From Pseudomonas serboccidentalis (GTDB taxonomy: Bacteria > Pseudomonadota > Gammaproteobacteria > Pseudomonadales > Pseudomonadaceae): a stretch of 64,000 nt of DNA. The position numbers were made by a program, and so were the translations under genes. Below, piece after piece: positions 2,301 to 50,830 of this stretch (positions are counted from its first letter, which is position 1; each line of letters starts with the position of its first letter). The notes beneath the pieces were generated by a model. It was not told the DNA's origin and searched no databases. It saw only the letters and a list, made by a program, of their open reading frames with translations. The stretch lies in the NCBI RefSeq assembly GCF_028830055.1, contig NZ_CP101655.1, positions 5,760,704 through 5,824,703 of the forward strand, written 5' to 3'.

Positions 2301-2320
2301 CATATTCCACAAAGGAATAT
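2301..2320. promoter_or_regulatory. candidate CysB-type site upstream of tcyJ
   Basis: ATTCC-N5-GGAAT palindrome within CATATTCCACAAAGGAATAT, about 175 nt before the cystine-binding protein. Related half-sites recur before other sulfur genes in this window. The regulator is inferred, not shown. Confidence 0.4.
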
Positions 2321-2493
2321 CATTTCAAATATTAAGTATTTTCAAGTCTAACGCAGACATCTTATAGTCTCGCCGCAGGCGAATTTCGCGCAAGACGCAT
2401 AAGCTGCTTTAGGGCACGATAACGCAGTCGTTCAAATCCCGAATTCGCCAACTTTCCTTAAGCGTCTTCCATAAGAAAACACAGGGGCTTGTC

Positions 2494-3294
2494 ATGAATT
2501 TTTCCGCACTACGTCGCAATCTGCTGGTAGGTTCGCTGGGCCTTGCACTGAGCGCCGGCCTGATCGGCCAGGCAACTGCCGGTGAACAGCTGAAGCAGAT
2601 CAAGGACAAAGGCGTTATCAACGTCGGCCTGGAAGGCACTTACCCACCGTTCAGCTTCGTTGACGAGAACGGCAAACTCTCCGGTTTCGAGGTCGAACTC
2701 TCCGAAGCGCTGGCGCAGAAGCTGGGTGTCAAAGCCAAGGTTCAACCCACCAAGTGGGACGGCATCCTCGCCGCGCTGGAATCCAAGCGCCTGGACGTCG
2801 TGGTCAACCAGGTGACCATCTCCGACGAGCGCAAAAAGAAGTATGACTTCTCCGAGCCCTACACCGTTTCCGGGATTCAGGCGCTGGTGCTGAAGAGCAA
2901 GGAAGCCGCGCTGAACATCAAGACCGCTGCCGACCTGTCCGGCAAGAAGGTCGGTGTCGGCCTGGGCACCAACTACGAACAGTGGGTCCGCGCCAATGTG
3001 CCGGGCGCTGACGTGCGCACCTACGACGATGATCCGACCAAGTTCGCCGACCTGAACAATGGTCGCACCGACGCCATCCTGATCGACCGTCTGGCCGCGC
3101 TGGAATACGCCAAAAAAGCTCCGAAAACCGTAGCCGCTGGTGAAGCCTTCTCCCGTCAGGAGTCCGGCATTGCCCTGCGTAAAGGCGAACCGGAGCTGCT
3201 GGCTGCGGTGAACAAGGCCCTCGACGAACTGCGTGCCGACGGTACCCTTGAGAAGCTGTCCAAGAAATACTTCAACGCTGACGTCACTAAATAA
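2494..3294 (+). CDS. tcyJ: cystine ABC transporter, periplasmic binding protein
   Basis: 266 aa. Residues 1-29 form a signal peptide (arginines RR at 7-8, hydrophobic core, cleavage near ATA-GE). The rest is a type II polar amino-acid-binding protein: IKDKGVINVGLEGTYPPFSFVDENG opens lobe 1 (shown here only as a landmark: VGLEGTYPPFSF), and KYDFSEPYTVSG and LIDRLAALEYA are family positions for ligand and hinge. The downstream permease and ATPase complete the importer, with 1-nt overlap to tcyL. By family knowledge the ligand is L-cystine and related sulfur amino acids. The adjacent dcyD fits this. Shine-Dalgarno CAGGGG is 8 nt before ATG. Confidence 0.92.
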   Translation: MNFSALRRNLLVGSLGLALSAGLIGQATAGEQLKQIKDKGVINVGLEGTYPPFSFVDENGKLSGFEVELSEALAQKLGVKAKVQPTKWDGILAALESKRLDVVVNQVTISDERKKKYDFSEPYTVSGIQALVLKSKEAALNIKTAADLSGKKVGVGLGTNYEQWVRANVPGADVRTYDDDPTKFADLNNGRTDAILIDRLAALEYAKKAPKTVAAGEAFSRQESGIALRKGEPELLAAVNKALDELRADGTLEKLSKKYFNADVTK

Positions 3295-3959
3295 TGGAAG
3301 AAGCTTTCCAACTCGCACTCGACTCCGCGCCCTTCCTGCTCAAGGGCGCGTACTTCACGGTGATCCTCAGTCTCGGCGGCATGTTCTTCGGCTTGCTGCT
3401 GGGCTTTGGGCTGGCGTTGATGCGCCTGTCGCGCTTCAAATCGGTCAGTTGGCTTGCCCGGATCTACGTGTCGTTCTTTCGCGGCACGCCGTTGCTGGTG
3501 CAGCTGTTCGTGATCTATTACGGCTTGCCGCAATTGGGTCTGGAACTCGATCCGCTGCCAGCGGCCCTGATCGGCTTCTCGCTGAACATGGCCGCTTACG
3601 CCTGTGAAATCCTGCGTGCCGCGATCGGTTCGATCGAACGGGGTCAGTGGGAAGCCGCTGCGAGCATCGGCATGACCCGCGCGCAGACCCTGCGCCGGGC
3701 CATCCTGCCGCAGGCCATGCGCACGGCGTTGCCGCCGCTGGGCAACAGCTTCATTTCGCTGGTCAAGGACACGGCACTGGCCGCCACCATTCAGGTGCCG
3801 GAACTGTTCCGTCAGGCACAGCTGATTACCGCCCGGACTTTCGAAGTCTTCACCATGTATCTTGCCGCCGCGCTGATCTACTGGATTCTGGCCACGGTGC
3901 TGTCGCACCTGCAGAACAAGTTGGAAGAGCGGGTCAATCGGCACGACCAGGAGTCCTGA
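3294..3959 (+). CDS. tcyL: cystine ABC transporter, permease
   Basis: 221 aa inner-membrane permease of the polar amino acid (HisMQ/YecS) class. It has about five hydrophobic segments and the cytoplasmic coupling-helix EAA motif at about residues 120-140 ([20 protein letters not shown]). Translation is coupled to tcyJ: its ATG overlaps the tcyJ TAA by one base. It ends 4 nt before tcyN, so the three genes form one operon. A single permease gene implies a homodimeric channel. Confidence 0.93.
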
Positions 3960-3963
3960 CCCC

Positions 3964-4713
3964 ATGATTGTCGTGGAAAAACTGACAAAGCAGTTCAAGG
4001 GTCAAGAGGTGCTCAAAGGCATCGATCTTGAGGTGAAAGAAGGCGAGGTCGTGGCCATCATCGGCCCCAGCGGTTCGGGCAAGACCACGTTCCTGCGCTG
4101 CCTGAATTTCCTTGAGCAACCCACCAGCGGCCGGATCAAGGTCGGCGATATCGAAATCGATACCAGCCGCCCGTTGAGCCAGCAGCAAAGCCTGGTGCGC
4201 AACCTGCGCCAGCACGTGGGTTTCGTGTTCCAGAACTTCAACCTGTTCCCCCATCGTACCGCGCTGGAAAACGTCATCGAAGGGCCGATCGTGGTCAAGA
4301 AGATGCCGCGCGAACAAGCCACCGCCTTGGGCATGAAACTGTTGGCCAAAGTCGGTCTGGCAGGCAAGGAGGACGCTTATCCGCGTCGCCTGTCCGGCGG
4401 TCAGCAACAGCGCGTGGCGATTGCCCGGGCGCTGGCGATGGAGCCGGAAGTGATCCTGTTCGACGAGCCGACCTCGGCCCTCGACCCGGAACTGGTCGGC
4501 GAAGTACTGGCGACCATTCGCGGCCTCGCTGAAGAAAAGCGCACCATGGTCATCGTCACCCACGAAATGGGTTTTGCCCGCGACGTGGCCAACCGGGTGG
4601 TGTTTTTCGACAAAGGCGTGATCGTCGAGCAAGGTGAAGCCAAGGCGTTGTTTGCCAACCCGAAAGAACAACGCACCAAACAGTTTCTCAGCAAGTTTCT
4701 GAATCACGCCTGA
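3964..4713 (+). CDS. tcyN: cystine ABC transporter, ATP-binding protein
   Basis: 249 aa ATPase of the polar amino acid import class. It shows Walker [10 protein letters not shown] (about residues 34-42), Q-loop [14 protein letters not shown] signature [14 protein letters not shown], Walker [13 protein letters not shown] and H-loop VTHEMGFA, so all catalytic elements are present. It is the last gene of the tcyJLN operon. The 450-nt gap after it has a short dyad at 4733-4754 but no clear U-tract terminator. Confidence 0.94.
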
Positions 4714-4997
4714 GCAACTTGATGCAAACCATTAACTTCCATGGATGGAAGTTATCTTCATCTCTCCCGCCAAAACATTAAAACCTTTCAAACAACTACA
4801 TCTATGTTCTGCAACAGATAAGAACAATCTGCGACGTACCTGTGCATGTGGATAAAGGTTTAAACCGGCTTGCCCGAAAACAGCTGAAAATCCGTAAAAA
4901 CCGTAGTTCCGTTCGCCAAAACAGCTAGGCAGCCCGCCTTGCCAGCGTAGGAAGTTTCTGATTAGCTCGTAATTTACGGATTAACTAATCCGGACCA
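4714..4997. other. intergenic stretch after tcyN
   Basis: No convincing gene. The base composition is lower in GC than the flanking genes. It carries a perfect 9-bp inverted repeat (TAACTTCCA / TGGAAGTTA, 4733-4754, loop TGGA) that could be the tcy terminator stem or an operator, although a T-run is missing. Confidence 0.5.
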
Positions 4998-5026
4998 TTG
5001 ACACTCTTTCGCGCACCCTCTTATCT
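4998..5026 (+). promoter_or_regulatory. sigma-70 promoter for the 5165 gene
   Basis: TTGACA (4998-5003), a 17-nt spacer, then TTATCT (5021-5026). Near-consensus spacing and hexamers, about 140 nt upstream of the start at 5165. Confidence 0.6.
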
Positions 5027-5164
5027 AGTCGCCAACCGGCACCAATTAGTTGAATCATTCCGTACTCAACCAGAACAAAAGTTCACAGTTGTATTACCGA
5101 TTCATCACGCCTTTTGTTTTTTCAAGAAACGGAATTCGCTGCAAGACTTCAAGGAGAGAACCCG

Positions 5165-5935
5165 ATGACCCGCACTTCGCCTACCCCCGAACTGGCAGCG
5201 CCGAACCTGGCATCCGCGCAAAAAAACGCCATCAACCTGGCCGCCGCCGCTCATCTGCTGATCGATGTCCTGCCCTACCCCGGCATGGACGTCGGTGACC
5301 TGATCGAACTGTTCTGGAACAACTGCTACGTCGCCTCCCGGGTATTGACCAGCGAAGACCTCGGCGCCTCGGTCAGTCTGCGGGTTCCGGAAAGTTTCAT
5401 TGCCAGTGGCACCGCACGCATCCACTACCGGATCATGCAGGTCGGTCAGGGCCCGGCGCTGTCGGCGGCAACCCGGGTGCAGGTCAAACTCGACTGCCCC
5501 GGTGGTCAGCCTTCGACGTTGTGCGGTGACGAGAATCAGCAACTGGCGCCGGTCACGCTGCCCGACACCATCCGCCGCCAGGGGGTGAACCCCAATCAGA
5601 TCAAACGCGGCGTCCCGCTGACCATCGAGCCCTACCTGAACATGGCCGAGGACGACGAAATCACCTTGCGCTGGGGCGATGTACGAATGGACCTGCCCAG
5701 GATCAGCGCAGCGGATGTCGGGCAGCCAATCCATGTCTGGGTACCCCCGGCGATCATCGTCGAGGGCGGTGAAGACCTGCGTCTGGACGTGACGTATTGC
5801 GTGCTCGACTGGGTCGGCAACAACTCTCGCTGGGCACCGCCACGGACATTGAAGATTGGCTGCGTGAATCCTTATTTGAAGGTGCCACTGCGCCAAGAGC
5901 TAAAGGCCGCTGAATCCCGCAAGAAAGAACTCTGA
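5165..5935 (+). CDS. hypothetical protein with two Ig-like repeats
   Basis: 256 aa, function not recognised. Two similar halves can be seen: residues about 35-120 begin VLPYPGMDVGDLIELFW, and residues about 155-240 begin IEPYLNMAEDDEITLRW. Both follow the pattern [VI].PY..M...D.I.L.W, then a segment resembling S..D.G......VP (VSLRVPESF and IHVWVPPAI). The pattern resembles the Ig-like repeats of large secreted pseudomonad proteins, but no signal peptide or membrane segment is visible here. The frame is open from 5114; ATG 5165 is chosen because AAGGAGAG lies 7 nt before it. A sigma-70 promoter is just upstream, so it appears to be a monocistronic unit lying between two sulfur operons. Confidence 0.7.
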   Translation: MTRTSPTPELAAPNLASAQKNAINLAAAAHLLIDVLPYPGMDVGDLIELFWNNCYVASRVLTSEDLGASVSLRVPESFIASGTARIHYRIMQVGQGPALSAATRVQVKLDCPGGQPSTLCGDENQQLAPVTLPDTIRRQGVNPNQIKRGVPLTIEPYLNMAEDDEITLRWGDVRMDLPRISAADVGQPIHVWVPPAIIVEGGEDLRLDVTYCVLDWVGNNSRWAPPRTLKIGCVNPYLKVPLRQELKAAESRKKEL

Positions 5936-5938
5936 ACC

Positions 5939-5972
5939 TTTGTGGCGAGGGAGCTTGTCGAATCGTCGCACC
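5939..5972. repeat. degenerate half REP, type C
   Basis: TTGTGGCGAGGGAGCTTGTCG resembles the TGTGGCGAGGGGGCTTGCC arm found at 20709 and 50902 but has no inverted partner. It is a probable REP remnant. Confidence 0.4.
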
Positions 5973-6010
5973 CACAATCGTTAACCAAAACGACCACGCA
6001 ACCTTCTATG

Positions 6011-6037
6011 CATATTCCTAAAAGTTAGTTTATTTAA
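6011..6037. promoter_or_regulatory. candidate sulfur-starvation element upstream of sfnB operon
   Basis: CATATTCCTAAAAGTTAG followed by TTTATTTA. It closely matches CATATTCTTTTAAGTTAT + TTATTTA at 29522 between the sftP and sftR genes, and the oscA upstream element at 50812. It is a likely activator site for the operon beginning at 6135, by position and recurrence only. Confidence 0.45.
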
Positions 6038-6089
6038 TATTTATACACGCTTAGGGTATATGAACCGGACCACCGGACATTCTTTCGTT

Positions 6090-6112
6090 CGCCGCACTTT
6101 TGCGGCGTTTTT
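6090..6112 (+). terminator. intrinsic terminator in the leader of the sfnB operon
   Basis: Perfect 7-bp stem CGCCGCA / TGCGGCG with loop CTTT, directly followed by TTTTT. It lies 155 nt after the 5165 gene and only 2 nt before the first in-frame ATG of the micro-ORF. It is either the terminator of the upstream gene or an attenuator of the sfnB operon. Confidence 0.75.
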
Positions 6113-6134
6113 CATGAGATGTGAGGTAGGTAGT

Positions 6135-6203
6135 ATGGTCCGGAACACAATCACCCCAGTGCAGATCGCCAGGGCATTGCGTGCAGCCAAGGAGCGGCAC
6201 TGA
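6135..6203 (+). CDS. 22-aa leader/micro-protein coupled to sfnB
   Basis: Encodes 22 residues: MVRNTITPVQIA then RALRAAKERH. The ATG is preceded by GAGGTAGGT at 4-12 nt; an in-frame ATG at 6114 would give 29 aa. The TGA at 6201-6203 overlaps the ATG of the SfnB-like gene as TGATG, and the SfnB Shine-Dalgarno AAGGAG lies inside this ORF. Translation of the two is therefore probably coupled. The product is basic and helical, with the pattern I-T-P-x-Q-I-A-R-A-L-x-A-A. Function unknown; it could be a regulatory leader peptide or a genuine micro-protein. Confidence 0.6.
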   Translation: MVRNTITPVQIARALRAAKERH

Positions 6204-7444
6204 TGTCCAGTCTGGCAGACGCAAACGTCCAGTCTGATCTGGACATCGCCCCACTGTTGTTGCCCGCGCAGGTCTTGCGCAACGACGCCCAAGCCATCGA
6301 GGCCGCCCATGAGCTGGCGCAAGTCGCTCGCGTGCAGGCCGCCAAGCGCGACCGCCAGCGCAAGCTGCCGTGGGCGGAAATCGAACAGTTCACCCGCAGC
6401 GGCCTGGGCAGCATTGCCATCCCGCGTGAGTACGGCGGCCCGCAGGTTTCGTTCGTTACCCTGGCCGAAGTGTTCGCGATCATTTCCGCGGCCGATCCGG
6501 CCCTGGGGCAGATCCCGCAAAACCAGTTCGGCATCATCAATCTGGTGCTCGGCAGCGCCACTGAAGCGCAGAAAAAGCAGCTGTTCCAGAGCGTTCTGGA
6601 AGGCTGGCGTATCGGCAATGCCGGCCCGGAGCGCGGCACCAAAAACACCCTGGAATTGAAAGCGCGAATCACCGCCGACGGTGATGATTACGTGATCAAC
6701 GGCCAGAAGTTCTACTCCACCGGCGCGCTGTTCGCGCACTGGGTTGCCGTCAAGGCACTCAACGACGACGGCAAGCAAGTGCTGGCCTTCGTCCGTCGAG
6801 GCACTCCGGGGCTGCGCATTGTTGATGATTGGTCGGGCTTCGGTCAGCGCACCACCGCCAGCGGCACGATTGTGCTGAACAACGTGCGCGTCGAATCGAG
6901 CCTGGTGGTCGACAACTGGAAGATCAACGAGAAGCCCAATACTCAAGGTGCGGTGTCGCAGCTGATTCAGGCGGCCATCGACGCCGGAATAGCCCGTGGC
7001 GCCATCGACGATGCCATCGAGTTCGTCAAAACCCGTGCCCGGCCCTGGATCGACGCCAAGGTCGAACGCGCCAGCGATGACCTCTACGTGATCGCCGACA
7101 TCGGCAGACTGAAAATCGAACTGCACGCCGCCGAAGCGCTGCTGCGCAAGGCCGGGCAAGTGCTCGATCAGGTACACGCCGCGCCGCTTACCGCCGAGTC
7201 CGCGGCCCGCGCTTCGATTGCCGTGGCCGAAGCCAAAGTGCTGACCACCGAGATCTCGCTGCTGGCCAGCGAAAAACTTTTCGAACTGGCCGGCAGCCGC
7301 GCCACCCTCGCCGAATTCAACCTCGACCGGCACTGGCGTAACGCCCGGGTGCACACCCTGCACGACCCGGTGCGCTGGAAATATCACGCGGTTGGCGCTT
7401 ATCGCCTCAACGGCACGTTGCCGGCTCGCCACTCCTGGATCTGA
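6203..7444 (+). CDS. sfnB: SfnB-family sulfur acquisition flavoprotein (1)
   Basis: 413 aa, acyl-CoA-dehydrogenase-fold flavoprotein related to SfnB and to DszC-type FMNH2-dependent monooxygenases. Members occur in operons for use of dimethylsulfone, sulfonates and other organosulfur compounds; the exact reaction is not fixed by sequence. Landmarks are IPREYGGP (residues about 73-80), PQNQFG, the flavin-region segment WSGFGQRTTASGT and the C-terminal helix HWRNARVHTLHDPVRW. The start ATG overlaps the micro-ORF stop. A paralogue follows 33 nt downstream, then an FMN monooxygenase, so the operon probably carries out successive oxidations of one or more imported organosulfur substrates with reduced flavin. 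Confidence 0.85.
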   Translation: MSSLADANVQSDLDIAPLLLPAQVLRNDAQAIEAAHELAQVARVQAAKRDRQRKLPWAEIEQFTRSGLGSIAIPREYGGPQVSFVTLAEVFAIISAADPALGQIPQNQFGIINLVLGSATEAQKKQLFQSVLEGWRIGNAGPERGTKNTLELKARITADGDDYVINGQKFYSTGALFAHWVAVKALNDDGKQVLAFVRRGTPGLRIVDDWSGFGQRTTASGTIVLNNVRVESSLVVDNWKINEKPNTQGAVSQLIQAAIDAGIARGAIDDAIEFVKTRARPWIDAKVERASDDLYVIADIGRLKIELHAAEALLRKAGQVLDQVHAAPLTAESAARASIAVAEAKVLTTEISLLASEKLFELAGSRATLAEFNLDRHWRNARVHTLHDPVRWKYHAVGAYRLNGTLPARHSWI

Positions 7445-7477
7445 CCGCACACGTTCTCAAGAGCCTTGGAGAAACCT

Positions 7478-10029: not shown

Positions 10030-10030
10030 A

Positions 10031-10104: not shown

Positions 10105-10149
10105 CCGACCAGACTCCACAAACTTCATGCACTGACTGGAAAAAACACC

Positions 10150-10959: not shown

Positions 10960-10961
10960 GG

Positions 10962-12717: not shown

Positions 12718-12721
12718 AGCA

Positions 12722-20322: not shown

Positions 20323-20460
20323 ACTTGCCACCTTCCACAATCACACTCTCAGCCTGGTGTCATCGCTCAGCAGATCCTTGGCAAAACGCCGACCAATCTC
20401 GGTGTCGAAGCCGACGTAGCGCCCAGCCTCATCGACGAAACCGAAAACTATCCTGTGGGT
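20312..20460 (-). pseudogene. relict of an amino-acid ABC substrate-binding protein
   Basis: On the minus strand 20460-20340 encodes a segment typical of the lobe 1 start of polar amino acid binding proteins (VFGFVDEAGRYVGFDTEIGR, then RFAKDLLSDD). The frame stops at 20341. In the +1 frame the DNA continues as AESVIVEGGKWPD and stop at 20312. The start, most of the body and probably the promoter-proximal codons are missing, so this looks like a gene reduced by internal deletion. Confidence 0.6.
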
Positions 20461-20470
20461 TTGCCGGGAA

Positions 20471-20489
20471 GGAATAAGAAGGCTATTTT
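20471..20489. promoter_or_regulatory. candidate sulfur-starvation element
   Basis: GGAATAAGAAGGCTATTTT. Nearly identical to GGAATAAGAAGCTATTTG at 23591. It could have served the relict transporter gene (minus strand) or the micro-ORF at 20590 (plus strand). Confidence 0.4.
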
Positions 20490-20589
20490 CCTTTGCGCTG
20501 TAGGAAGGATCTTTTTTGCACGAAAGCCCTCCAAGGACGAACAGCTTTTGGCCAGACTCCCCCGGCCAAACCATTACAAGGAAGACAAC

Positions 20590-20682
20590 ATGGACGTAAA
20601 AGTGCCGCAGCGACTGGATCCGCAGGACATTGTGAAATTACTCGTGGCGTTGCGTCGGGCGTTGAAGACCCAAGTGGCCTGA
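20590..20682 (+). CDS. 30-aa micro-ORF
   Basis: Encodes MDVKVPQRLDPQDIV then KLLVALRRALKTQVA. AAGGAAG lies 7 nt before the ATG, a good ribosome binding site. It is a predicted amphipathic helix with pattern L-D-P-x-D-I-V-K-L-L-x-A-L-R, similar to the 22-aa peptide at 6135 and the first helix of OscA. It is followed by a REP pair. No known function; its reality depends on the ribosome binding site and the shared pattern. Confidence 0.5.
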   Translation: MDVKVPQRLDPQDIVKLLVALRRALKTQVA

Positions 20683-21878: not shown

Positions 21879-21968
21879 GTAGGAGCTGCCGCAGGCTGCG
21901 ATCTTTTGATTTTCAATAGCTTGAAACCGCTGAAGATCAAAAGATCGCAGCCTGCGGCAACTCCTACA
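21879..21968. repeat. REP pair, type A
   Basis: GTAGGAGCTGCCGCAGGCTG and inverted CAGCCTGCGGCAACTCCTAC arms. The outer edge of the right arm supplies the TAG stop codon of the sigma-54 activator-like gene at 21964. Confidence 0.9.
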
Positions 21969-22884
21969 TGAGCCCGACGTCTTTCAGTAACTGCTTTAGC
22001 GCCTGCTGCTCGGAAGCGGTGCCATTTCCCAGGATTTGTTTGATCTGGCTTTCGATCTGCACCCGCGCCGGTGGCAGGTTCAGGTGTTCCGGGAGGATTT
22101 CATCACCAGTGCTGACCAGCAGCGCAAAGTGAATGACGTTTTCCAGCTCGCGGGTGTTGCCCGGCCAGCTGTGGCGCTCCAACAGGTGTTGCGCCGCTTC
22201 GCTGATCAACGGCACCGGCAGGTCGAGGCGTTGGCTGTAGATGCCGAGAAAATATTCCGCCAGCGACAGGATGTCGCCGATTCGCTCGCGCAGCGCCGGC
22301 AATTCCAGTTGCCCTTCGCTGAGGTAGTGATAAAGCCGTTCATGGAATTTCCCTGCGTCCACCGCTTGCGCCAGGTCGATGCTGGTCGCCGCCACCAGGC
22401 GCACGTCCACCGGGCTCGGCTGATGGGCTCCGACACGGGTAACTTCGTGGTTTTCCAGAGCGGCGAGCAATTTGATCTGGATCGGCAACGGCAGGTCGCC
22501 AATCTCATCCAGATACAACGTGCCGCCATTGGCCGAACCGAACCAGCCGGCGCGGCTGCTGGCCGAGCCTGTGTAACTGCCAGCGGCATAGCCGAACAGT
22601 TCGGCATCGGCGTAGGTCGGGCTGATCGCGCCGCAATTGACCGAGACGAACAGACCGCTGCGATCACTGGCCCGGTGGATGTGGCGGGCGAGCAGCTCTT
22701 TACCGGTACCGGTCTCGCCACGGATCAACACCGAGATGGCACGCGGTGCCAGGTGCTCCAGCTCTTCGCGCAATTGGCGCGAACGTGGATCGACGAAGAC
22801 CAGCGCCTTGGCGCGGATGCTCAGGGGGCTTTTTTCCGCATCGGGAAAGGTCAGCAACGGCTGACCGAACGTTTCAAAACTCAT
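21964..22884 (-). CDS. degenerate sigma-54 activator (SfnR-like), no HTH
   Basis: 306 aa, essentially one AAA+ domain of the bacterial enhancer-binding protein family. Walker A is GETGTGKE (56-63), Walker B GTLYLDEIG (121-129), and PGNTRELENVIH marks sensor II. Three departures are visible. The GAFTGA loop that contacts sigma-54 reads GSYTGS (102-107). The two arginine-finger positions (PspF R162 and R168) are His181 and Tyr187 in KFHERLYHYL. After residue about 270 there is no Fis-type helix-turn-helix; the protein ends DVGLM with its stop in a REP. There is no N-terminal sensor domain, as in SfnR. It may be a decayed or repurposed regulator of organosulfur genes. Confidence 0.75.
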   Translation of the reverse strand: MSFETFGQPLLTFPDAEKSPLSIRAKALVFVDPRSRQLREELEHLAPRAISVLIRGETGTGKELLARHIHRASDRSGLFVSVNCGAISPTYADAELFGYAAGSYTGSASSRAGWFGSANGGTLYLDEIGDLPLPIQIKLLAALENHEVTRVGAHQPSPVDVRLVAATSIDLAQAVDAGKFHERLYHYLSEGQLELPALRERIGDILSLAEYFLGIYSQRLDLPVPLISEAAQHLLERHSWPGNTRELENVIHFALLVSTGDEILPEHLNLPPARVQIESQIKQILGNGTASEQQALKQLLKDVGLM

Positions 22885-22943: not shown

Positions 22944-23525
22944 TCAAGCGCGACGCCGGGCGTGGTGTTCCAGGCGGTTTTGCAGGCGATAGAGGTAAGC
23001 GAACCCCTGCTCCCAGCGCTGATGCCCGGACTTGACGTTAATGTGCCCGGCCCCGGCGAGAATCCCCGCCTCGGCGCCCCAGTTACGCGCCAGTTCCAGT
23101 GCACGCGGGGCACTGACGGCGGCGTCATTGTCGGAGGCGACGACCTGGCTGGGGAACGGCAGCAGATCGCTCGGGATCGGGGCGAAATTGCGCAGCGCCG
23201 GCGCGCAGGTCGGACGCTCGACATCCGCAGGCGCGACCAGCAACGCCCCGCGCACCTGCCGCAGGTACTGCAGCGGCGCAGTGGCCGCCCAATGCGCAAC
23301 GGTGACGCAGCCGAGGCTGTGGGCGATCAGGATCACGGGCGTGCTGTCGGCGGCAATCGCCTCGGCCAGCGCAGCGACCCAGTCTTCACGTCGTGGCGTC
23401 AGCCAGTCGGCCTGCTCCACCCGGGCGCTGTTGGGCAGGCTGTTTTGCCAGTGGGTTTGCCAATGATCTTCTGGCGATCCTTGCCAGCCCGGCACAATCA
23501 GATAGCGGATTGATTCGTTGCGCAT
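22944..23525 (-). CDS. RBBP9/YdeN-family alpha/beta hydrolase
   Basis: 193 aa serine hydrolase. N-terminal YLIVPGWQGSPEDHWQTHW is the family signature, nucleophile elbow is AHSLGCV with serine at about residue 74, Asp lies in VVASDNDAAVS, and the catalytic His in GAGHINVKSG. The frame is open to 23690, but ATG 23525 has GGAG 8 nt upstream and starts the conserved region. The substrate is unknown. A CysB-like element and a 12-bp inverted repeat lie in its promoter region, hinting at sulfur control. Confidence 0.87.
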   Translation of the reverse strand: MRNESIRYLIVPGWQGSPEDHWQTHWQNSLPNSARVEQADWLTPRREDWVAALAEAIAADSTPVILIAHSLGCVTVAHWAATAPLQYLRQVRGALLVAPADVERPTCAPALRNFAPIPSDLLPFPSQVVASDNDAAVSAPRALELARNWGAEAGILAGAGHINVKSGHQRWEQGFAYLYRLQNRLEHHARRRA

Positions 23526-23574: not shown

Positions 23575-23633
23575 GATTTATATTCGGTAAGGAATAAGAA
23601 GCTATTTGTTAATACCTGAAACGAATATAAATC
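23575..23633. promoter_or_regulatory. 12-bp inverted repeat enclosing GGAATAAGAAG element
   Basis: GATTTATATTCG (23575-23586) and CGAATATAAATC (23622-23633) are perfect inverted copies 35 nt apart. Between them is GGAATAAGAAGCTATTTG (23591-23608). It is positioned as the upstream control region of the hydrolase at 22944-23525. Confidence 0.5.
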
Positions 23634-29477: not shown

Positions 29478-29521
29478 GGCGCGGCTCCTGGTCAAAAAAC
29501 ACACAGACATCTTCAGCGCTG

Positions 29522-29547
29522 CATATTCTTTTAAGTTATTTATTTAT
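29522..29547. promoter_or_regulatory. candidate sulfur-starvation element between sftP and sftR
   Basis: CATATTCTTTTAAGTTATTT then ATTTAT. Best match to the element at 6011. About 45 nt before sftP. Confidence 0.45.
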
Positions 29548-29602
29548 GGATTTACAAATATTTACTGCATAAGAGATTGCCTTTATAAGGAGTCGACCTA
29601 AT

Positions 29603-29620
29603 GCATATCCAATGCATTTC
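29603..29620. promoter_or_regulatory. candidate SftR operator
   Basis: GCATATCCAATGCATTTC, 23 nt before the sftR start. Related copies: GCATCCACTGCAT at 30683 and, on the minus strand, GCATCCAATGCATTC at 35756-35770. Confidence 0.45.
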
Positions 29621-29642
29621 CCGGATATTTTTTATGTGAAAA

Positions 29643-30587
29643 ATGCATATCGACTTGCGCCAGTTACGACACTTCATCGCCCTCGCCGAACAACGCAGCT
29701 TCGTCGCTGGCGCGCAGGTGGTGAACCTGTCGCAGTCGGCGTTCAGCCGCAGCATTCAGGCGCTGGAACACAGCGTCGGCTGTCAGTTGGTCGATCGCGG
29801 CCGCAAGGACCTGCCGCCGACCAAACAAGGCCAGGTGCTGCTCGAACATGCGCGACGGCTGGTCAGTGGCGCGCAGCAAATGGCCAACGAGATCAGCCAG
29901 TTCAATGGCCTGGAGGCCGGCGAGCTGCGTTTCGGCTGTGGGCCGGCGCCGGCAGCCGGATTGATCCCGCGAGCGATCGGCGCATTCATCGGGCGTTACC
30001 CGAAGGCGCGGGTGCAGTTTCAGGTCGATGACTGGCAGAGCCTGAGCAAACGCCTGCTCAGTGAAGAGTTCGAATTCTTCGTCGCCGACACTCGACACTT
30101 CGAGGCCGATCCGGATTACCTCACCCATCGATTGCGTCCGCGCAAATGGCATTTCTGTTGTCGTGCCGGGCATCCGCTGGCCACTGTTGAACGGGTCACC
30201 GCCGAGCAACTGATGAGTTATCCACTGGCGGTGAGCATCCGTCCGCCGAACCTGCGCAAGGTGATCGTCGACCTCAGCGGCCGCCCGGATTTCACACCCA
30301 ATGTGGAATGCGAAAACAGCTCGAGCCTGCTCAGTGTGGTACTGCGTTCGGAGGCGATCGGGATTGTTGGAGCGTACTCCGATGCGCTGCATCAGGCCAA
30401 GGGTGAGCTGGTGTGTTTGAAGATCGAGGGCCTGGCCGATGATCTGGAGGAGCTGTACACCCGCTACGGGATTGTCAGCCGCGCAGGGTATCGGTTGTCG
30501 CCGTTGGCGGAAGCGATGATTGAGCAGATCAAGGCGATTGATGTGGTGAAGGAAGAGATGTGTTCGCTGGAGAATTTTGCGGTCTGA
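29643..30587 (+). CDS. sftR: LysR-family regulator, SftR-like
   Basis: 314 aa. The N-terminal winged HTH (MHIDLRQLRHFIALAEQRSF landmark, then QSAFSRSIQALE) is followed by a LysR substrate-binding domain. It is divergent from the TonB receptor gene, with 165 nt between starts. In P. putida, SftR controls sulfate-ester genes and responds to sulfur supply; the same role is proposed here by position. It is closely similar to the second LysR gene at 33579 throughout (FGCGPAPA, EFFVAD.RHFEADP, SGRPDFTPNVE). Confidence 0.82.
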   Translation: MHIDLRQLRHFIALAEQRSFVAGAQVVNLSQSAFSRSIQALEHSVGCQLVDRGRKDLPPTKQGQVLLEHARRLVSGAQQMANEISQFNGLEAGELRFGCGPAPAAGLIPRAIGAFIGRYPKARVQFQVDDWQSLSKRLLSEEFEFFVADTRHFEADPDYLTHRLRPRKWHFCCRAGHPLATVERVTAEQLMSYPLAVSIRPPNLRKVIVDLSGRPDFTPNVECENSSSLLSVVLRSEAIGIVGAYSDALHQAKGELVCLKIEGLADDLEELYTRYGIVSRAGYRLSPLAEAMIEQIKAIDVVKEEMCSLENFAV

Positions 30588-33397: not shown

Positions 33398-33496
33398 GGG
33401 TAGACCCTCATCGACTGCTTGCGGTTGGACGGCAGCGAAACATCGCTCTATCTATATTCCATTTACATCTAATAGATATTCACATGCTTCGTTGAC

Positions 33497-33515
33497 GGAA
33501 TAAGAGCTTGCATTT
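33497..33515. promoter_or_regulatory. candidate sulfur-starvation element, atsK/lysR intergenic
   Basis: GGAATAAGAGCTTGCATTT, aligned with GGAATAAGAAGCTATTTG at 23591. About 100 nt upstream of atsK on one side and 64 nt from the LysR start on the other. Confidence 0.4.
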
Positions 33516-33578
33516 AAAACCTCAAGCAACCCTCGTCGCAAATGCCTTCGAGCTATTTTTAGGATGCCGGAAAAGCAT

Positions 33579-35590: not shown

Positions 35591-35986
35591 GGGTACGGCT
35601 CCTTGATCACGACAGGCGTTGAGGAGCCGAAAGTAGGCCGAAGCGTGACCTTCACTTAAATACTATAAATGCACATTTTTATAGCTTTTAACGCTAAACA
35701 AGCAACGGCGCGGCTTGCAGCGGCATATGCATTAACAGCATCGAAAATATTCTTCGAATGCATTGGATGCGCGTCGGGCTGGAGGCCTTAAATGGCGCTG
35801 CTTATCTCCAAATCTAATTTTTAGCACAGCGCTTATAACTTATTGTTTTTAGCTAATGCCGCTAAAGATCGCAGCCTTCGGCCGCTCCTATCGAGTGAAT
35901 TCACGGACGCATCCCCCTGTAGGAGCTGCCGAAGGCTGCGATCTTTTGATCTTGATCCCGATCCAACCCGACAACGGAGGTCACTC
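35591..35986. promoter_or_regulatory. atsR-atsB divergent control region
   Basis: Gene-free, AT-rich centre (35650-35850). It holds ATATTCTTCGAATGCATTGG (35748-35767), which joins the sulfur element ATATTCTT to the minus-strand operator core GCATCCAATGCATTC (35756-35770); a second ATATGCATTAAC lies at 35725-35736. A type A REP pair occupies 35863-35950, next to atsB. Confidence 0.55.
35863..35950. repeat. REP pair, type A
   Basis: AAAGATCGCAGCCTTCGGCC and inverted GCCGAAGGCTGCGATCTTTT, spacer of about 35 nt. It lies within the 5' leader of atsB, an unusual place for an element that often blocks transcription. Confidence 0.85.
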
Positions 35987-42306: not shown

Positions 42307-42331
42307 TCCAGAATCAGGTTGTCTGATCTGA

Positions 42332-42405: not shown

Positions 42406-42409
42406 CCCT

Positions 42410-44465: not shown

Positions 44466-44518
44466 GGCACACCTCGATTGATCAGGCACACAGGCTAGGC
44501 GCCTTCGGCCCGGTTGCC

Positions 44519-44535
44519 CATTACAAACTTGTAAT
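44519..44535. promoter_or_regulatory. HprR/CusR-type operator
   Basis: CATTACAAACTTGTAAT matches the known E. coli HprR/CusR box CATTACAAAATTGTAATG except at the centre and last base. It lies between the divergent response regulator and hydroxyisourate hydrolase genes. Confidence 0.78.
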
Positions 44536-44601
44536 CCGACTGACGAGGTTCTGACGAGGAGCGCCGGCTAACGTGGCGACCTTCGCTTTCGGAGCCTGTT
44601 C

Positions 44602-45015: not shown

Positions 45016-45032
45016 CCACCACACAAATCCTC

Positions 45033-45121
45033 TGTAGGAGTGAGCCTGCTCGCGATAATGGTGTGTCAGTCGCCTCTGGTTTTCCTGATACACCGTTATC
45101 GCGAGCAGGCTCACTCCTACA
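45033..45121. repeat. REP pair, type B, long spacer
   Basis: TGTAGGAGTGAGCCTGCTCG and inverted CGAGCAGGCTCACTCCTACA separated by about 49 nt; separates convergent uraH and the Crp/Fnr gene. Confidence 0.9.
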
Positions 45122-45138
45122 ATGGATCGGTGTGAATT

Positions 45139-45816
45139 TCAGAGAGTGGTCAGCGCCCGCAATCGCGCGGCATCAAGGATTTCGATCTCACCGTACCCCA
45201 GCCCGATAATCCCCTGCCCCTGCAGATCCTTGAGGATCTGGTTGGCGGTCTGCCGCGACAGCGACAGCATCGACGCCAGCTGTTCCTGCGGCAACTGCAG
45301 CACACGGCGTGGCGAGTCGAGTTCGCCGTAGCCTTCGGCGATCAGCAGCAGACGATGAGCCAGGCGTGCCGGGGCCGGGAGCAAACTGAGCTGTTCGAGG
45401 TTGATGAAGGTCAGGCGCAATTTCTGGCTCATCAGCAGCGCCAGATGTCGCCAGTACAGCGGCTGTTCATCAAGCAGTTTGAGCAGGGTGTGCTGCGGGA
45501 TATTCAGCAACGTGCACGGCCCGACGGCGTAGGCGTCATGGGTGCGCGGCTGGCCGTCGAACAGGCAGATTTCGCCGAACCAGTGCGGCGCTTCCACCAG
45601 GCTCAGCAGCGCCTCCTTGCCCTGCTCGCTTACCGCACCGATACGGATCGCGCCGTCGAGCACCGCGTACAACCCGCACGGCGCATCACCGCGCTGGAAC
45701 AAGCGCTGCCCCGCCGTCAGCCGCCGCTCACGGGCCGCCGCCAGCAGACTATCCTGAAAGGATACCGGCAGATGACTGAACCATTGCCCGGTCATCAGCT
45801 TTGAACGCTTATCCAT
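45139..45816 (-). CDS. Crp/Fnr-family transcriptional regulator
   Basis: 225 aa. Cyclic-nucleotide-binding-like beta-roll at residues 10-125 (GLYAVLDGAIRIGAVSEQG, GEICLFDGQPRTHDA) and C-terminal HTH LASMLSLSRQTANQILKDL. The N-terminal [4Fe-4S] cysteines of Fnr are absent, so an oxygen sensor is unlikely; ligand unknown. The frame is open to 45876; ATG 45816 with GGGAGTG upstream is chosen. It is divergent from the DUF962 gene. Confidence 0.88.
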   Translation of the reverse strand: MDKRSKLMTGQWFSHLPVSFQDSLLAAARERRLTAGQRLFQRGDAPCGLYAVLDGAIRIGAVSEQGKEALLSLVEAPHWFGEICLFDGQPRTHDAYAVGPCTLLNIPQHTLLKLLDEQPLYWRHLALLMSQKLRLTFINLEQLSLLPAPARLAHRLLLIAEGYGELDSPRRVLQLPQEQLASMLSLSRQTANQILKDLQGQGIIGLGYGEIEILDAARLRALTTL

Positions 45817-45898
45817 GAACACTCCCAATTGTCGCCTGCCTGACAGAGCGAACGCCGAACCCGGGGCATGCTGCACTCACCCTACAGGAGGAACAACA

Positions 45899-46426
45899 AT
45901 GAAAAGCCTCGTCGATCATTTGAGTCAATACGCCGCGTACCACCGTGACCCGCGCAACATCGCCAGCCACTTTATCGGCATTCCGCTGATCGTGGTGGCG
46001 GTGGCCGTTTTATTGTCGCGACCAGAGTGGTCACTGGGCGGCTTGTGGCTATCGCCGGCGGTGTTGCTGGCATTGGCCTCGGCGTGGTTTTACCTGCGCC
46101 TGGAAGTGAAGCTTGGCATTGTGATGACGGTGCTGATGGGACTGTCGGTCTGGGCCGGGCATGCGCTGGCGCAGCAGAGCACCATGGTCTGGCTCGGCAG
46201 CGGCCTGGCGATGTTCGTGATCGGCTGGGTGATCCAGTTTGTCGGGCACCACTATGAAGGGCGCAAACCGGCGTTTGTCGATGATGTAAGCGGGTTGATT
46301 GTCGGGCCGTTGTTTGTGGTGGCGGAGCTGGCCTTCATGCTCGGGATGCGGCATGAGTTGAAAGAGCAGATCGAGGCGCGGGCGGGGGTCGTGCGGGTCA
46401 ATCCGAATGGCAAAGCGGCGGCTTAG
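45899..46426 (+). CDS. Mpo1-like (DUF962) membrane protein
   Basis: 175 aa with about four membrane segments. The DUF962 signature opens YAAYHRDPRNIASHFIGIPL and a second conserved segment is QFVGHHYEGRKPAFVDD. Yeast Mpo1 of this family is an Fe(II) dioxygenase acting in alpha-oxidation of 2-hydroxy fatty acids; the conserved His residues here are compatible, but bacterial function is unproven. The start is at 45899 with AGGAGGAA 8 nt upstream; a longer frame from 45815 is rejected. Confidence 0.85.
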   Translation: MKSLVDHLSQYAAYHRDPRNIASHFIGIPLIVVAVAVLLSRPEWSLGGLWLSPAVLLALASAWFYLRLEVKLGIVMTVLMGLSVWAGHALAQQSTMVWLGSGLAMFVIGWVIQFVGHHYEGRKPAFVDDVSGLIVGPLFVVAELAFMLGMRHELKEQIEARAGVVRVNPNGKAAA

Positions 46427-46434
46427 GCCGCTTT

Positions 46435-46510
46435 AAAAGATCGCAGCCTGCGGCAGCTCCGACATTGGAATGCGTTTCCCCTGTAGGAGCAGGCTGCGAT
46501 CTTTTGATCT
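46435..46510. repeat. REP pair, type A with arm deletion
   Basis: AAAAGATCGCAGCCTGCGGC and inverted GTAGGAG-CAGGCTGCGATCT, in which the expected CTGCCG between GTAGGAG and CAGGCTG is missing. It follows the DUF962 gene and abuts the cysA stop. Confidence 0.82.
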
Positions 46511-47499
46511 TAAAGGCTGGCGACTTTCTGCCAGACCTTCGGTTTGAAGAACAGCGTTTCACCCTTGGCCAGACCAATCAGGCTGTCGTGATCCTTCACC
46601 ACTTCGGCCTCAATCAGATCCGTCTGCCCTTCCACCTTCAAAGTCACCCGCGTGGTCGCGCCCAACGGGCGGATATCGCGCACTTCAGCGGCGTGGTGAT
46701 CTTCCAGCTCATGCCTGGACAGTGACACTTCGTGCGGGCGGAACAGCACGTGGTTGTCGTCGCTGAGCAGCAGACGGTTCGAGTCGCCGAGGAAGTGATA
46801 GACGAAATCGCTGGCCGGGTTTTCGTAGACGTCGCCCGGTGAGCCGATCTGCTCGATCACGCCCTTGTTCATCACCACGATACGGTCGGCGACTTCCATC
46901 GCTTCTTCCTGGTCGTGGGTCACGAACACCGAGGTCAGGTTGATGTCTTCGTGCAGGCGCGCGAGCCAGCGGCGCAGCTCTTTGCGCACCTTGGCGTCGA
47001 GGGCGCCGAACGGCTCATCGAGCAACAGCACTTTCGGCTCCACCGCCAAGGCCCGGGCCAGGGCGATGCGCTGACGCTGGCCGCCGGACAATTGCTCCGG
47101 GTAGCGATCCGACAGCCAGTCCAGTTGCACCATGTTCAGCAGTTCGTGAACCTTGGTCGCGATCTGGCTTTCGCTCGGGCGCTGGTTTTTCGGTTTCATG
47201 CGCAGGCCGAACGCGACGTTGTCAAACACCGTCATGTGGCGAAACAGTGCGTAGTGCTGGAACACAAAACCGACGTTGCGATCACGCACATCATGGCCGG
47301 AGACGTCTTCACCGTGAAAGACGATGTTGCCCTGATCCGGGGTTTCCAGCCCGGCGATGATCCGCAGCAGCGTGGTCTTGCCGCAACCGGACGGACCGAG
47401 CAGCGCCACCAGTTCACCGCTCTGGATGTCCAGACTGATGTTGTCCAGCGCCTTGAACGCATTGAAATTCTTGCTGACGTTACGCACTTCGATCGACAT
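46510..47499 (-). CDS. cysA: sulfate/thiosulfate ABC transporter ATP-binding protein
   Basis: 329 aa. Walker [11 protein letters not shown]-loop [11 protein letters not shown], signature [14 protein letters not shown], Walker [14 protein letters not shown]-loop [15 protein letters not shown]-terminal TOBE-like domain follows residue about 240. It is the last gene of oscA-sbp-cysT-cysW-cysA. Supplies energy for sulfate uptake. Confidence 0.95.
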
Positions 47500-47502
47500 G
47501 AA

Positions 47503-48375
47503 TTATTCCTCCGCGGCGCTGGCGCGCAGGCGGTTGATACGGTTTTCGCTCCACTGCTTGAGCAGCAGGATGAAGAGCGCCAGGATCAGCAACAGGCTCG
47601 CCACGGCGAACGCGGCCACGTGGTTGTATTCGTTGTAGAGGATCTCGACGTGCAGCGGCAAGGTGTTGGTCACCCCGCGAATGTGCCCGGAAACCACCGA
47701 CACCGCACCGAACTCACCCATGGCCCGCGCGGTACACAGCACCACGCCATAGATCAGGCCCCATTTGATGTTGGGGACGGTGACGTGCCAGAACATCTGC
47801 CAGCCGTTGGCGCCGAGCAACCGCGCGGCTTCCTCTTCCTGAGTGCCTTGTTCCTGCATCAGCGGGATCAGCTCACGGGCCACGAACGGTACGGTGACGA
47901 AGATCGTCGCCAGCACGATGCCCGGCAGGGCGAAGACGATTTGAATGTCGTGATCCTGCAGCCACGGCCCGAACAGGCCCTGGGCGCCGAACATCAACAC
48001 GTAGACTAAACCTGCGATCACTGGCGACACCGAGAACGGCAGGTCGATCAGCGTCACCAGCATGCTCTTGCCACGGAACGAGTACTTGCTCACGCACCAC
48101 GCGGCACTGACGCCGAACACCAGGTTCAGCGGCACCGAAATCAGGACCGCGATCACCGTCAGTTTCAGCGCCGACAGCGCGTCCGGTTCAAAAATCGCGG
48201 TGAAGAATGCCCCGAGGCCGTTCTTCAGACCCTGCGACACCACGATGAACAGCGGCAGCAGCAGAAACAGGAGAAAGATCAGCCAGCCGAGGCCGATCAG
48301 GATTCTGCGCGAAGTGGCGCTGCCACGGCGCGCAGCGTTGGCCGAGGACGCGGCCGCAATAGACGATTGGGACAT
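47503..48375 (-). CDS. cysW: sulfate ABC transporter permease CysW
   Basis: 290 aa, six membrane segments, coupling motif [20 protein letters not shown]. Conserved CysW regions are [36 protein letters not shown] and [19 protein letters not shown]. Pairs with CysT. 3 nt separate it from cysA. Confidence 0.95.
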
Positions 48376-48388
48376 GGTTCGCGCCTCC

Positions 48389-49207
48389 TTATGGGGTTTC
48401 GATGCGCCGCTGCAGCAAGTTGATCAGCAGCAACAGGACAAAGGAAACCACCAGCATCAACACGCCGATGGCCGTAGCGCCGGTGTAGTCGTATTGGTCG
48501 AGTTTGACCATGATCAACAACGGCAGGATCTCGGTTTTCATCGGCATGTTGCCGGCAATGAAAATCACCGAACCGTACTCGCCGACACCACGGGCAAACG
48601 CCAGGGCGAAACCCGTCAGCCAGGCGGGCAACAGCGCCGGCAGCAGGATATGGCGGAACACCTGCAACGGTTTCGCACCAAGGCAGGCGGCGGCTTCTTC
48701 GACTTCACGCGGGATGTCGGCCAGCACCGGCTGCACCGTGCGCACCACGAACGGCAGGGTCACGAAAGTCAGCGCGAGGGTGATGCCCAACGGCGTGTAG
48801 GCGATCTTGAAACCGAGGTCGGCGGCGAACTGCCCGACCAGACCGGTCGGGGTGTACAGCGCAGTCAAGGCGATACCGGCTACAGCCGTCGGCAGAGCGA
48901 ACGGCAGATCGATCATTGCGTCGATCACCTTGCGCCCCGGGAAGGTGTAGCGCACCAGCACCCACGCCAGCAGCGTACCGATGATGCCGTTGATGATCGC
49001 CGCGCACAGGGCGGTGCCGAAGCTCAGCTTCAAGGCAGCCAACACCCGCGGCGCGGTAATGATCGTCCAGAACTGATCCCAGGTGAGTTGGGCGGCGTGG
49101 ACGAACATCGCCGCCAGCGGGATGAGCACAATCAGGCTGAGGTACACCAAGGTGTAACCCAGCGTCAGCCCGAAGCCGGGTATGACGGGGGAGATACGAC
49201 GCGACAT
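48389..49207 (-). CDS. cysT: sulfate ABC transporter permease CysT
   Basis: 272 aa, six membrane segments. [20 protein letters not shown] is the coupling loop, [19 protein letters not shown] the family core, and [17 protein letters not shown] its C-terminal signature. 13 nt before cysW. A REP pair separates it from sbp, which may lower expression of the membrane genes relative to the binding protein. Confidence 0.95.
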
Positions 49208-49246
49208 AAAAGTCCCTGGTTAAAAAGCATTCCGCTGAACGCACCA

Positions 49247-49338
49247 ATGTGGGAGCGAGCTTGCTCGCGAAGAAGGAGTATCAGCCAACTCTACGTCGTC
49301 TGACACTCCGCTTTCGCGAGCAAGCTCGCTCCCACATT
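49247..49338. repeat. REP pair, type B, inside the sulfate operon
   Basis: ATGTGGGAGCGAGCTTGCTC and inverted GAGCAAGCTCGCTCCCACAT with about 45 nt between, located between sbp and cysT. Confidence 0.9.
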
Positions 49339-49380
49339 TTCCGCGCCTGGCTTCAGGCTTAGTGTGTGGCTGAAGTCAGA

Positions 49381-50394
49381 TTACTGCGCCTGATAGATCT
49401 GGTCGAACACGCCACCGTCGTTGAAGAATTTCGGCTGCGCGGATTTCCAGCCGCCGAAGTCCTTGTCGATGGTCACCAGTTCCAGTTTCGGGAACTGCTG
49501 GGCGTACTTCGCCGCCACGTCCTTGTCACGCGGGCGGTAGAAGTTCTTCGCGGCGATCTCCTGACCGGCCGGGCTGTACAGGTGCTTGAGATAGGCTTCG
49601 GCGATCTGCTCGTTGCCCTTCTTCTCGGCGTTCTTGTCGACCACGGCCACCGGCGGCTCGGCAAGAATCGACAGCGACGGCACGACGATGTCGAACTTGT
49701 CGGCGCCGCCGTCCTCTTTCAGCGCCAGAAACGCTTCGTTTTCCCAGGCCAGCAACACGTCACCCTGACCGTTGTTGACGAAGGTGATGGTCGAGCCACG
49801 GGCGCCGGTGTCCAGTACCGGAACGTGCTTGAACAGGGTCTGCACGTAGGCCTTGGCCTTGGCTTCGTCACCGCCGTTGGCTTTCAGGCCGTAGGCCCAC
49901 GCGGCGAGGAAGTTCCAGCGTGCACCGCCGGAGGTTTTCGGGTTCGGGGTGATCACCGAGACGTCGTTCTTGACCAGGTCGCCCCAGTCCTTGATGCCTT
50001 TCGGGTTGCCCTTGCGCACCAGAAACACGATGGTCGAGGTGTACGGTGTGCTGGCGTCCGGCAGACGCTTCTGCCAGTCGGCCGGCAGGGTCTTGCCAAG
50101 CTTGGCGATTTCGTCGATGTCGCCGGCCAGCGCCAGGGTCACGACATCGGCACGCAGACCGTCGATCACCGCGCGGCCCTGCTTGCCCGAACCGCCGTGG
50201 GACTGCTGGATTTTCACGGTGTCGCCAGCATGATCCTGCTGCCAGAACTTGATGAATTCGGCGTTGTAGTCCTGATACAGCTCACGGGTCGGGTCGTACG
50301 ACACGTTGAGCAGCTCGTAATCCTTGGCAACCGCGGAACCGGCAAACACAGCGCTGGCCAGGGCGGCCAAAGCGTAACGGCGAATCGACGACAT
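49381..50394 (-). CDS. sbp: sulfate-binding periplasmic protein
   Basis: 337 aa with signal peptide (GSAVAKDY). The Sbp/CysP fingerprints are [36 protein letters not shown] and [16 protein letters not shown]; these contain the backbone groups that chelate sulfate. It delivers sulfate to CysTWA. oscA lies directly upstream on the same strand, with a REP pair between. Confidence 0.95.
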
Positions 50395-50463
50395 GGTGAA
50401 AGCTCCTGGAATTCTGGGTGATGGCTTTTTCTTATGAATATCTGGAATCGGGTTTGCCGGCGA

Positions 50464-50538
50464 AAGATCGCAGCCTCCGACAGCTCCTGCACACAGCCCC
50501 CTGTAGGAGCTGCCGCAGGCTGCGATTTTTTGATCTTC
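50464..50538. repeat. REP pair, type A
   Basis: AAAGATCGCAGCCTCCGACA and inverted TGCCGCAGGCTGCGATTTTT, between oscA and sbp. Confidence 0.85.
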
Positions 50539-50541
50539 AGC

Positions 50542-50724
50542 TCAGCCCGGTTTGTTGCCCGGCTGCTGCAAACGGAATTTCTCTTTGCGTTCGATCTGCA
50601 CGACCTGGGCGTTGTGCACAGTGATCTCCACCGCGCCAAACCGCAGATCGCGCAGCGCGCTCTGGATTTCACGCAAGATGGTGGTTTCGTCCTGACCGTC
50701 AACGCTGCGAAGGGATGCGCTCAT
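50542..50724 (-). CDS. oscA: OscA-type small protein (YezD/DUF2292 family)
   Basis: 60 aa. N-terminal amphipathic helix ETTILREIQSALRDL, then a short beta hairpin FGAVEITVHNAQVVQIERKE and a basic tail. Homologues upstream of sbp in pseudomonads (OscA of P. corrugata; PA0284) are needed for growth on organosulfur compounds and are induced by sulfur limitation; the molecular role is unknown. It starts with ATG after a GGAG site and precedes sbp. A sulfur-type element lies 90-110 nt upstream. Confidence 0.88.
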   Translation of the reverse strand: MSASLRSVDGQDETTILREIQSALRDLRFGAVEITVHNAQVVQIERKEKFRLQQPGNKPG

Positions 50725-50811
50725 GGTGCTGCTCCTTTGAATGGGATATGCCTGGCAGTGGGCGGCACTGCGTTTGGCGTGGGAGCAATATAAGAGAGGC
50801 GCAGATATTCT

Positions 50812-50830
50812 TAAAAAGACTATTTGAGAA
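50812..50830. promoter_or_regulatory. candidate sulfur-starvation element upstream of oscA
   Basis: AGATATTCTTAAAAAGACTA then TTTGAGAAT. It contains the ATATTCTT..AAG..TATTT pattern shared with 6011 and 29522, about 90 nt before oscA. Confidence 0.45.

Follow-up and report, generated by a model that had tools for sequence, protein, structure and literature searches.

Predicted CysB-type sites upstream of sulfur-scavenging genes in Pseudomonas serboccidentalis

The window analysed here, a 64 kb stretch of the Pseudomonas serboccidentalis genome (6.0 Mb, single contig), contains a recurrent A+T-rich element with TATTC and GAATA arms in front of sulfur genes. Analysis of the aligned promoters suggested that six of the eight sites at which the original prediction had placed this element are CysB-type activator sites, with CysB as the best-supported binder (probability about 0.78). 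CysB was favoured because a site profile (R2) matched the E. coli cysP and cysD promoters, the genome encodes one clear CysB (64% identical overall to E. coli CysB), and a second profile (R1) found a new place before a taurine-binding-protein gene. All eight strings were present where they had been reported; the shared element was recovered at 2301, 6011, 23591, 29522, 33497, and 50812 and not at 35744 or, with any certainty, at 20471. Judged from sequence, the set of CysB-type sites is real and had mostly been interpreted correctly, and the element is of a known kind. The names oscA, sftP, sftR, atsK, atsR, and atsB are in part those of the original prediction.

Results

Conservation of the six sites

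For each site, the DNA upstream of the same gene in other Pseudomonas genomes was aligned. The loci used were 29/30 for oscA, 28/30 for sfnB, 28/30 for the hydrolase gene, 22/30 for tcyJ, and 29/30 for lsfA (24 displayed), a gene outside the window; the rest failed the start-codon/peptide filter. For AtsK, 46/80 loci were aligned, and those left out (L063 and, from L078 on, all except L081 and L087) were mainly non-Pseudomonas. The sites were also modelled as two profiles from sequence alone: R1 was trained on the sfnB, sftR, oscA, and tcyJ sites and R2 on the hydrolase and atsK sites. The six predicted elements were as follows.

2301..2338, + strand: CysB-type element before tcyJ (cystine ABC transporter); R1 22 bits (training site)
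6009..6047, + strand: CysB-type element before the sfnB operon; ATATT[CT]C in 28/28 orthologous upstream regions
23575..23615, - strand: CysB-type element before the serine hydrolase and sigma54-activator genes; CTTATTCC in 28/28 orthologous regions
29520..29560, + strand: CysB-type element between sftP (TonB-dependent receptor) and sftR (LysR); ATATTC in 26/26 loci; R1 20.3 bits (training)
33483..33521, - strand: CysB-type element between atsK and a LysR gene; TTATTCCGTCAACGAA; TTATTCC in 28/29 loci with the same divergent arrangement
50804..50843, - strand: CysB-type element before oscA-sbp; TAGT[CA]TTTTTAAGAATA in 25/29 loci

Five of these sites (sfnB, hydrolase, sftP/sftR, atsK/lysR, and oscA) were nearly unchanged in relatives, and tcyJ kept the pattern loosely. 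The oscA block, about 40 bp long with its element at 50804-50841, was nearly invariant across the 29 loci and formed an inverted repeat around TAGTC-TTTTTAA-GAATA. The hydrolase site carried TATTC-N6/7-G[AG]ATA in 27/28 loci. In front of tcyJ, where the dyad TATTC-CACAAAG-GAATA occupied 2303-2319, the letters varied between relatives, and an exact TATTC-N6/7-GAATA dyad was found in 8/22 orthologous regions compared with 0.14% of shuffled upstream regions. Another 17 aligned atsK loci carried other DNA upstream, and TTATTCC occurred in none of them. A related conserved block was found at the lsfA promoter, with TATTTATTCTTTTT in 27/29 loci. Thus, conservation in orthologous intergenic regions, which had been named as a test of the prediction, extended to six of the eight sites and failed at 20471 and 35744. 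A CysB-type activation site would be expected to have its centre 50-60 bp ahead of the transcription start; of the promoters, the alignments alone suggested -10-like hexamers downstream of the oscA, sfnB, and hydrolase elements: GGTATAT lay next downstream of the sfnB element, and an aligned CCTATACT-like -10 came after the conserved CTTATTCC of the hydrolase promoter.

Two neighbouring features of these regions were also conserved. The 5' leader of sfnB (6064-6203, + strand) contained ACCGGACCACCGGAC in 28/28 loci and a 22-aa open reading frame (ORF) ending in TGATG at the sfnB start; such an ORF was read in 26 loci, with the stop at the same place in 22. A conserved leader peptide was unsupported, as the codon positions varied equally (6, 6, 7), and since the ORF lacked a coding signature, the leader may act as an RNA or protein-binding site. 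The atsK-LysR intergenic DNA (33398-33563) contained another conserved block, CGAAGGCATTTGCGAC, perhaps the operator of the atsK-adjacent LysR protein.

Distribution of the element in the genome

The profiles were scanned over sulfur-related and control DNA. In unfiltered scans of 92 kb of stretches around sulfonate-type and sulfate-binding genes, which had been picked before R1 and R2 existed (stretch L193 was outside the scans), R1 gave seven matches, of which six fell in intergenic DNA at lsfA and at two taurine-binding-protein genes, compared with three matches in 260 kb of control DNA, one of which sat at the start of a called gene. Counted per promoter, R1 matched 3/8 sulfur promoters outside the window and at most 3/117 control promoters (Fisher p 0.003); in the former count the L188 taurine promoter joined the list after its match, and loci of weaker SsuA-family matches elsewhere were left out. 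The lsfA promoter and one taurine promoter had been seen by eye before R1 was built, and neither was in its training set. Controls covered 13/13 control stretches for R1 and 9/13 for R2. The best R2 match in the sulfur stretches, 5.3 bits before a TauD-type gene, was no better than the R2 controls (up to 6.7 bits).

Genome-wide searches at E<=10 scored 150 of 214 first-look candidates for R1 and 150 of 203 for R2, so weak sites may be missed. Besides the four sites on which it was trained, R1 recovered a single new place (11.9 bits), which lay about 0.2 kb before a gene scoring above the cut-off of the taurine-binding-protein family. Within the window, the original prediction had noticed no such element before gab, tri, des, or GGDEF genes, and this was borne out by the unfiltered scans, in which, between 35.7 kb and the end of the window, only oscA gave matches exceeding 5.5 bits. 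By the R1 counts, the predicted element occurs ahead of sulfur-starvation genes and only seldom in other places; the simple symmetric matrix gave a weaker separation.

Relationship between the sites

The conserved blocks, about 35-40 bp long and A+T-rich, shared a core near (A/T)TATTC-N6/7-GAATA(A/T), of which one arm was often degenerate. When lsfA was added to the six sites, the summed pairwise similarity of the seven conserved blocks was 235 compared with a mean of 200 and a standard deviation of 8.5 (z = 4.1) for dinucleotide shuffles, and 0/400 shuffles reached the observed value; in this sum the tcyJ and lsfA blocks were consensus-like mixtures of orthologues. The exact dyad TATTC-N6/7-GAATA occurred only twice in 436 kb (the window and 372 kb of other stretches), both times at named sites. 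These results bear on whether the blocks are plain A+T-rich promoter DNA, such as UP elements or IHF or MvaT sites, that look alike by composition. Every block is A+T-rich, some control matches reached 8.7 bits, and the simple matrix was weak, as this explanation would predict. It is nevertheless very improbable, given the similarity unmatched by the shuffles, the scarcity of the exact dyad, and the retention of specific letters, such as CTTATTCC in every hydrolase locus.

Other searches were less informative. Of the rigid fixed patterns run over the genome, two gave no match and one matched just two places in the window, so that they were too rigid, and a seed-string search was too strict. 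The first motif search recovered only REP (repetitive extragenic palindromic) repeats; after masking, expectation maximisation (EM) gave a 22-column motif in which sites of both profile sets lined up, and this motif was not used as proof, as it was made without a null run.

Comparison with E. coli and identification of CysB

R2 was built free of E. coli sequence. When it was scanned over sulfur loci of E. coli (45.5 kb), cysP ranked first (10.4 bits) and cysD second (7.8 bits) of 17 matches, and an E. coli control stretch of equal size gave a maximum of 5.8 bits. Two 6.4-bit matches before tauA were equalled by matches inside genes. The atsK block and the cysD site had 20/26 columns in common. 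The predicted sites therefore resemble known CysB sites in their TTATTCC core. The summed block similarity to E. coli was mixed, with p values of 0.007 for tcyJ, 0.026 for cysP, 0.026 for tauA, and 0.033 for cysJ and of at least 0.18 for cysK, cysD, ssuE, and cysH.

CysB was the one match in the genome at E<=1e-30. Its N-terminus had 49/65 residues in common with the E. coli protein, and the helix TSQPGISKQ-R-LEDELG, which we take to be the recognition helix, differed at two similar residues. By this comparison, the genome encodes a CysB with a well-conserved DNA-binding domain.

The available text of PMC11329422 describes E. coli CysB sites as 19-bp elements upstream of -35 with a very weak consensus, and its authors consider that each 19-bp element more likely holds two half-sites, like the BenM ATAC-N7-GTAT. 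The dyad TATTC-N7-GAATA with one flanking base per side is likewise 19 bp long. In P. aeruginosa, sulfur starvation raises the expression of cys, ssu, msu, and sfnG, according to an excerpt of PMC12581299. For P. syringae, over 1000 CysB peaks are reported in PMC11957545, whose accessible part gives no CysB motif, and the passages used from PMC9431422 deal with the alginate operon.

Several results weigh against the assignment to CysB. With a symmetric matrix built from the six sites, leaving one out each time, four of the six loci were beaten by at most 5/115 control promoters, and sftR and atsK were beaten by 16/115 and 34/115, respectively; the same matrix showed no clear enrichment in 11 held-out regions. 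The motif must be regarded as degenerate, because this simple matrix separates sulfur from control promoters poorly. It had been proposed that genome-wide matrix hits would separate sulfur promoters from random DNA, and the outcome was mixed, poor for the simple matrix and good for the longer profiles. The sole new genome-wide R1 match was weak (E 2.76), R2 found its own two sites and nothing new among the 150 of 203 candidates scored at E<=10, and R1 matches of 5.9-8.7 bits occurred in control DNA. On E. coli sequence, R1 was weak over the sulfur loci, R2 was weak at cysK, and the cysJ and ssuE promoters were not ranked. Of ten single-pair tests with E. coli, four gave p values of 0.015-0.046 (uncorrected) and six gave at least 0.09.

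In another reading, two kinds of site are mixed, the hydrolase and atsK elements being CysB sites and those of the sfnB, sftR, and oscA type belonging to another sulfur-starvation factor. The pairwise tests did give two subgroups, hydrolase with atsK and sfnB with sftR, oscA, and tcyJ, and the E. coli cys promoters were matched well by R2 only. Against such a mixture, the single EM motif (again, lacking a null run) aligned sites of both groups, and tcyJ has the full TATTC-N7-GAATA dyad. We consider a mixture unlikely and prefer one CysB-type element for all six sites. For the tcy, sfn, atsK, sft, osc, and hydrolase promoters, the proposal of CysB as binder gained support from the cysP and cysD matches, the conserved DNA-binding domain, and the matches outside the training set at lsfA and the two taurine-binding-protein genes; it did not hold at 35744 and is doubtful at 20471.

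Sites 20471 and 35744 and a candidate SftR operator

The remaining two sites and the blocks near them were as follows.

20469..20488, - strand: doubtful; close to a 30-aa micro-ORF; TTATTCC half found here, poorly conserved; R2 10.3 bits, not in training
29586..29650, + strand: 66-column block at the sftR start, common to the atsR/atsB intergenic region; from alignment; CAATGCATT in 22/26 sftR loci
35655..35690, no strand assigned: weak CysB-like block in the atsR/atsB intergenic region; R1 10.1 and 9.2 bits, not in training; AAATACT in 27/29 loci
35724..35790, - strand: second copy of the candidate SftR operator (site 35744); AATGCATTGG in 29/29 atsR loci

At 20471 the GAATA half was kept in 6/11 relatives and lost in 5/11, while the adjoining DNA and the 30-aa ORF were conserved; membership of this site in the CysB-type element is doubtful because of that loss. 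At 35744 no conserved dyad of the TATTC type was found, and the conserved sequence was instead a 66-bp element, CCAATGCATT-N5-RATATTTT followed farther on by AATGCATAT (25 of the 29 atsR loci passing the filter were displayed). The blocks at 35744 and at the sftR start aligned over 66 columns. In 372 kb of other stretches of the genome the core of this block was absent when up to three mismatches were allowed and present at two places with four mismatches. From its sequence, site 35744 is assigned to the 66-bp block and not to the CysB-type element, and we propose the block at sftR and atsR/atsB as a candidate SftR operator.

This block, together with the two LysR genes in the window, would also fit a reading in which the shared elements are the sites of another LysR-type sulfur regulator, SftR or the atsK-adjacent LysR protein, and CysB acts elsewhere. 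The element, however, is found upstream of oscA-sbp and tcyJ as well, with related blocks ahead of lsfA and taurine-uptake genes, all distant from the local LysR regulators, and R2 matched two E. coli promoters known to be activated by CysB, those of cysP and cysD. Another LysR-type regulator as the binder of the shared element is therefore improbable, and CysB remains the preferred one.

Near site 20471, a 30-aa micro-ORF, MDVKVPQRLDPQDIVKLLVALRRALKTQVA, was observed at 20590-20682 (+ strand) with a ribosome-binding site. Its region was found in 11/14 relatives, with 10, 3, and 17 variable columns at the three codon positions over 22 codons, and from this variation the micro-ORF looks coding. 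On the opposite strand, a 77-aa ORF (20341-20574, - strand) resembled part of a binding protein by eye and is possibly the relict that the original prediction had placed here.

Gene content of the window

The genome is close to that of P. koreensis, judged by the best match of AtsK (99%). Window genes were assigned by family searches, which revealed tcyJ with its permease and ATPase genes, two SfnB-family genes, an NtaA/DmoA-type monooxygenase, MetQ-like proteins, a TonB-dependent receptor, two LysR genes, sulfatases, a TauD-type dioxygenase, and an NMT1-type binding protein with permease and ATPase. The sbp-type binding protein gene sits behind a 60-aa ORF, which was labelled oscA in this analysis. 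The names oscA, sftP, sftR, atsK, atsR, and atsB follow in part the available text of PMC3596284. Rfam searches of the window at gathering thresholds matched only a tRNA and the gabT RNA family, the latter at 58199-58259 (- strand) above the gathering score. Scanning the window strictly for sigma54 promoters gave zero intergenic matches, and a plasmid search with sbp returned nothing useful.

Discussion

The predicted sites suggest a mechanism in which sulfur limitation would lead CysB, together with acetylserine as its inducer, to bind the blocks as a tetramer and recruit RNA polymerase to promoters that lack a good -35 box. One regulon would thereby be switched on, comprising cystine uptake, sulfone and sulfonate oxidation (sfnB and the sigma54 activator behind the hydrolase gene), sulfate-ester uptake and cleavage (sftP/sftR and atsK), and oscA-sbp. 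The sigma54 activator (21964-22884) would be placed under CysB through the hydrolase promoter because its gene follows the hydrolase gene (22944-23525) in the same direction after 59 bp, and a regulatory cascade may result. On top of this, SftR is proposed to provide a further, substrate-specific level of control by way of the separate 66-bp block found at sftR and atsR/atsB.

More tentatively, the CysB operator could be defined as a 19-bp dyad, (A/T)TATTC-N7-GAATA(A/T), with N6 variants, so that each classical 19-bp half-site would be a complete two-armed site, and in Pseudomonas this operator would be layered with the separate 66-bp SftR operator as a second, substrate-specific switch for the sulfate-ester genes. 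We regard this broader scheme as possible, at somewhat less than even odds.

The analysis offers one testable regulon for the scavenging of cystine, sulfones, sulfonates, and sulfate esters in Pseudomonas. It also provides a usable description of the CysB site from comparative data and a separate candidate SftR operator at two promoters of the window.

Among known systems, the element is most like the CysB activation sites of E. coli and Salmonella (cysP, cysD, cysK, and cysJ). The TTATTCC core is found at cysP and cysD, the length agrees with the 19-bp elements described in the available text of PMC11329422, and the sites lie upstream of sulfur-assimilation genes in a genome that has a CysB with a conserved DNA-binding domain. 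They differ in that the Pseudomonas footprints show a clearer dyad and serve sulfate-ester, sulfone, osc, and tcy genes, whereas the E. coli cysJ and ssuE promoters were unmatched by the profiles. The two short inverted arms with a spacer of 6-7 bp are also reminiscent of the BenM-type LysR dyad ATAC-N7-GTAT, as given in the same portion of PMC11329422. The arms here, in contrast, are TATTC and GAATA. For the second layer, the likeness is to the SftR system. Regulation of sulfate-ester genes by SftR is a known system, and the window contains an sftR gene and a block common to sftR and atsR/atsB, for which an operator role is proposed here.

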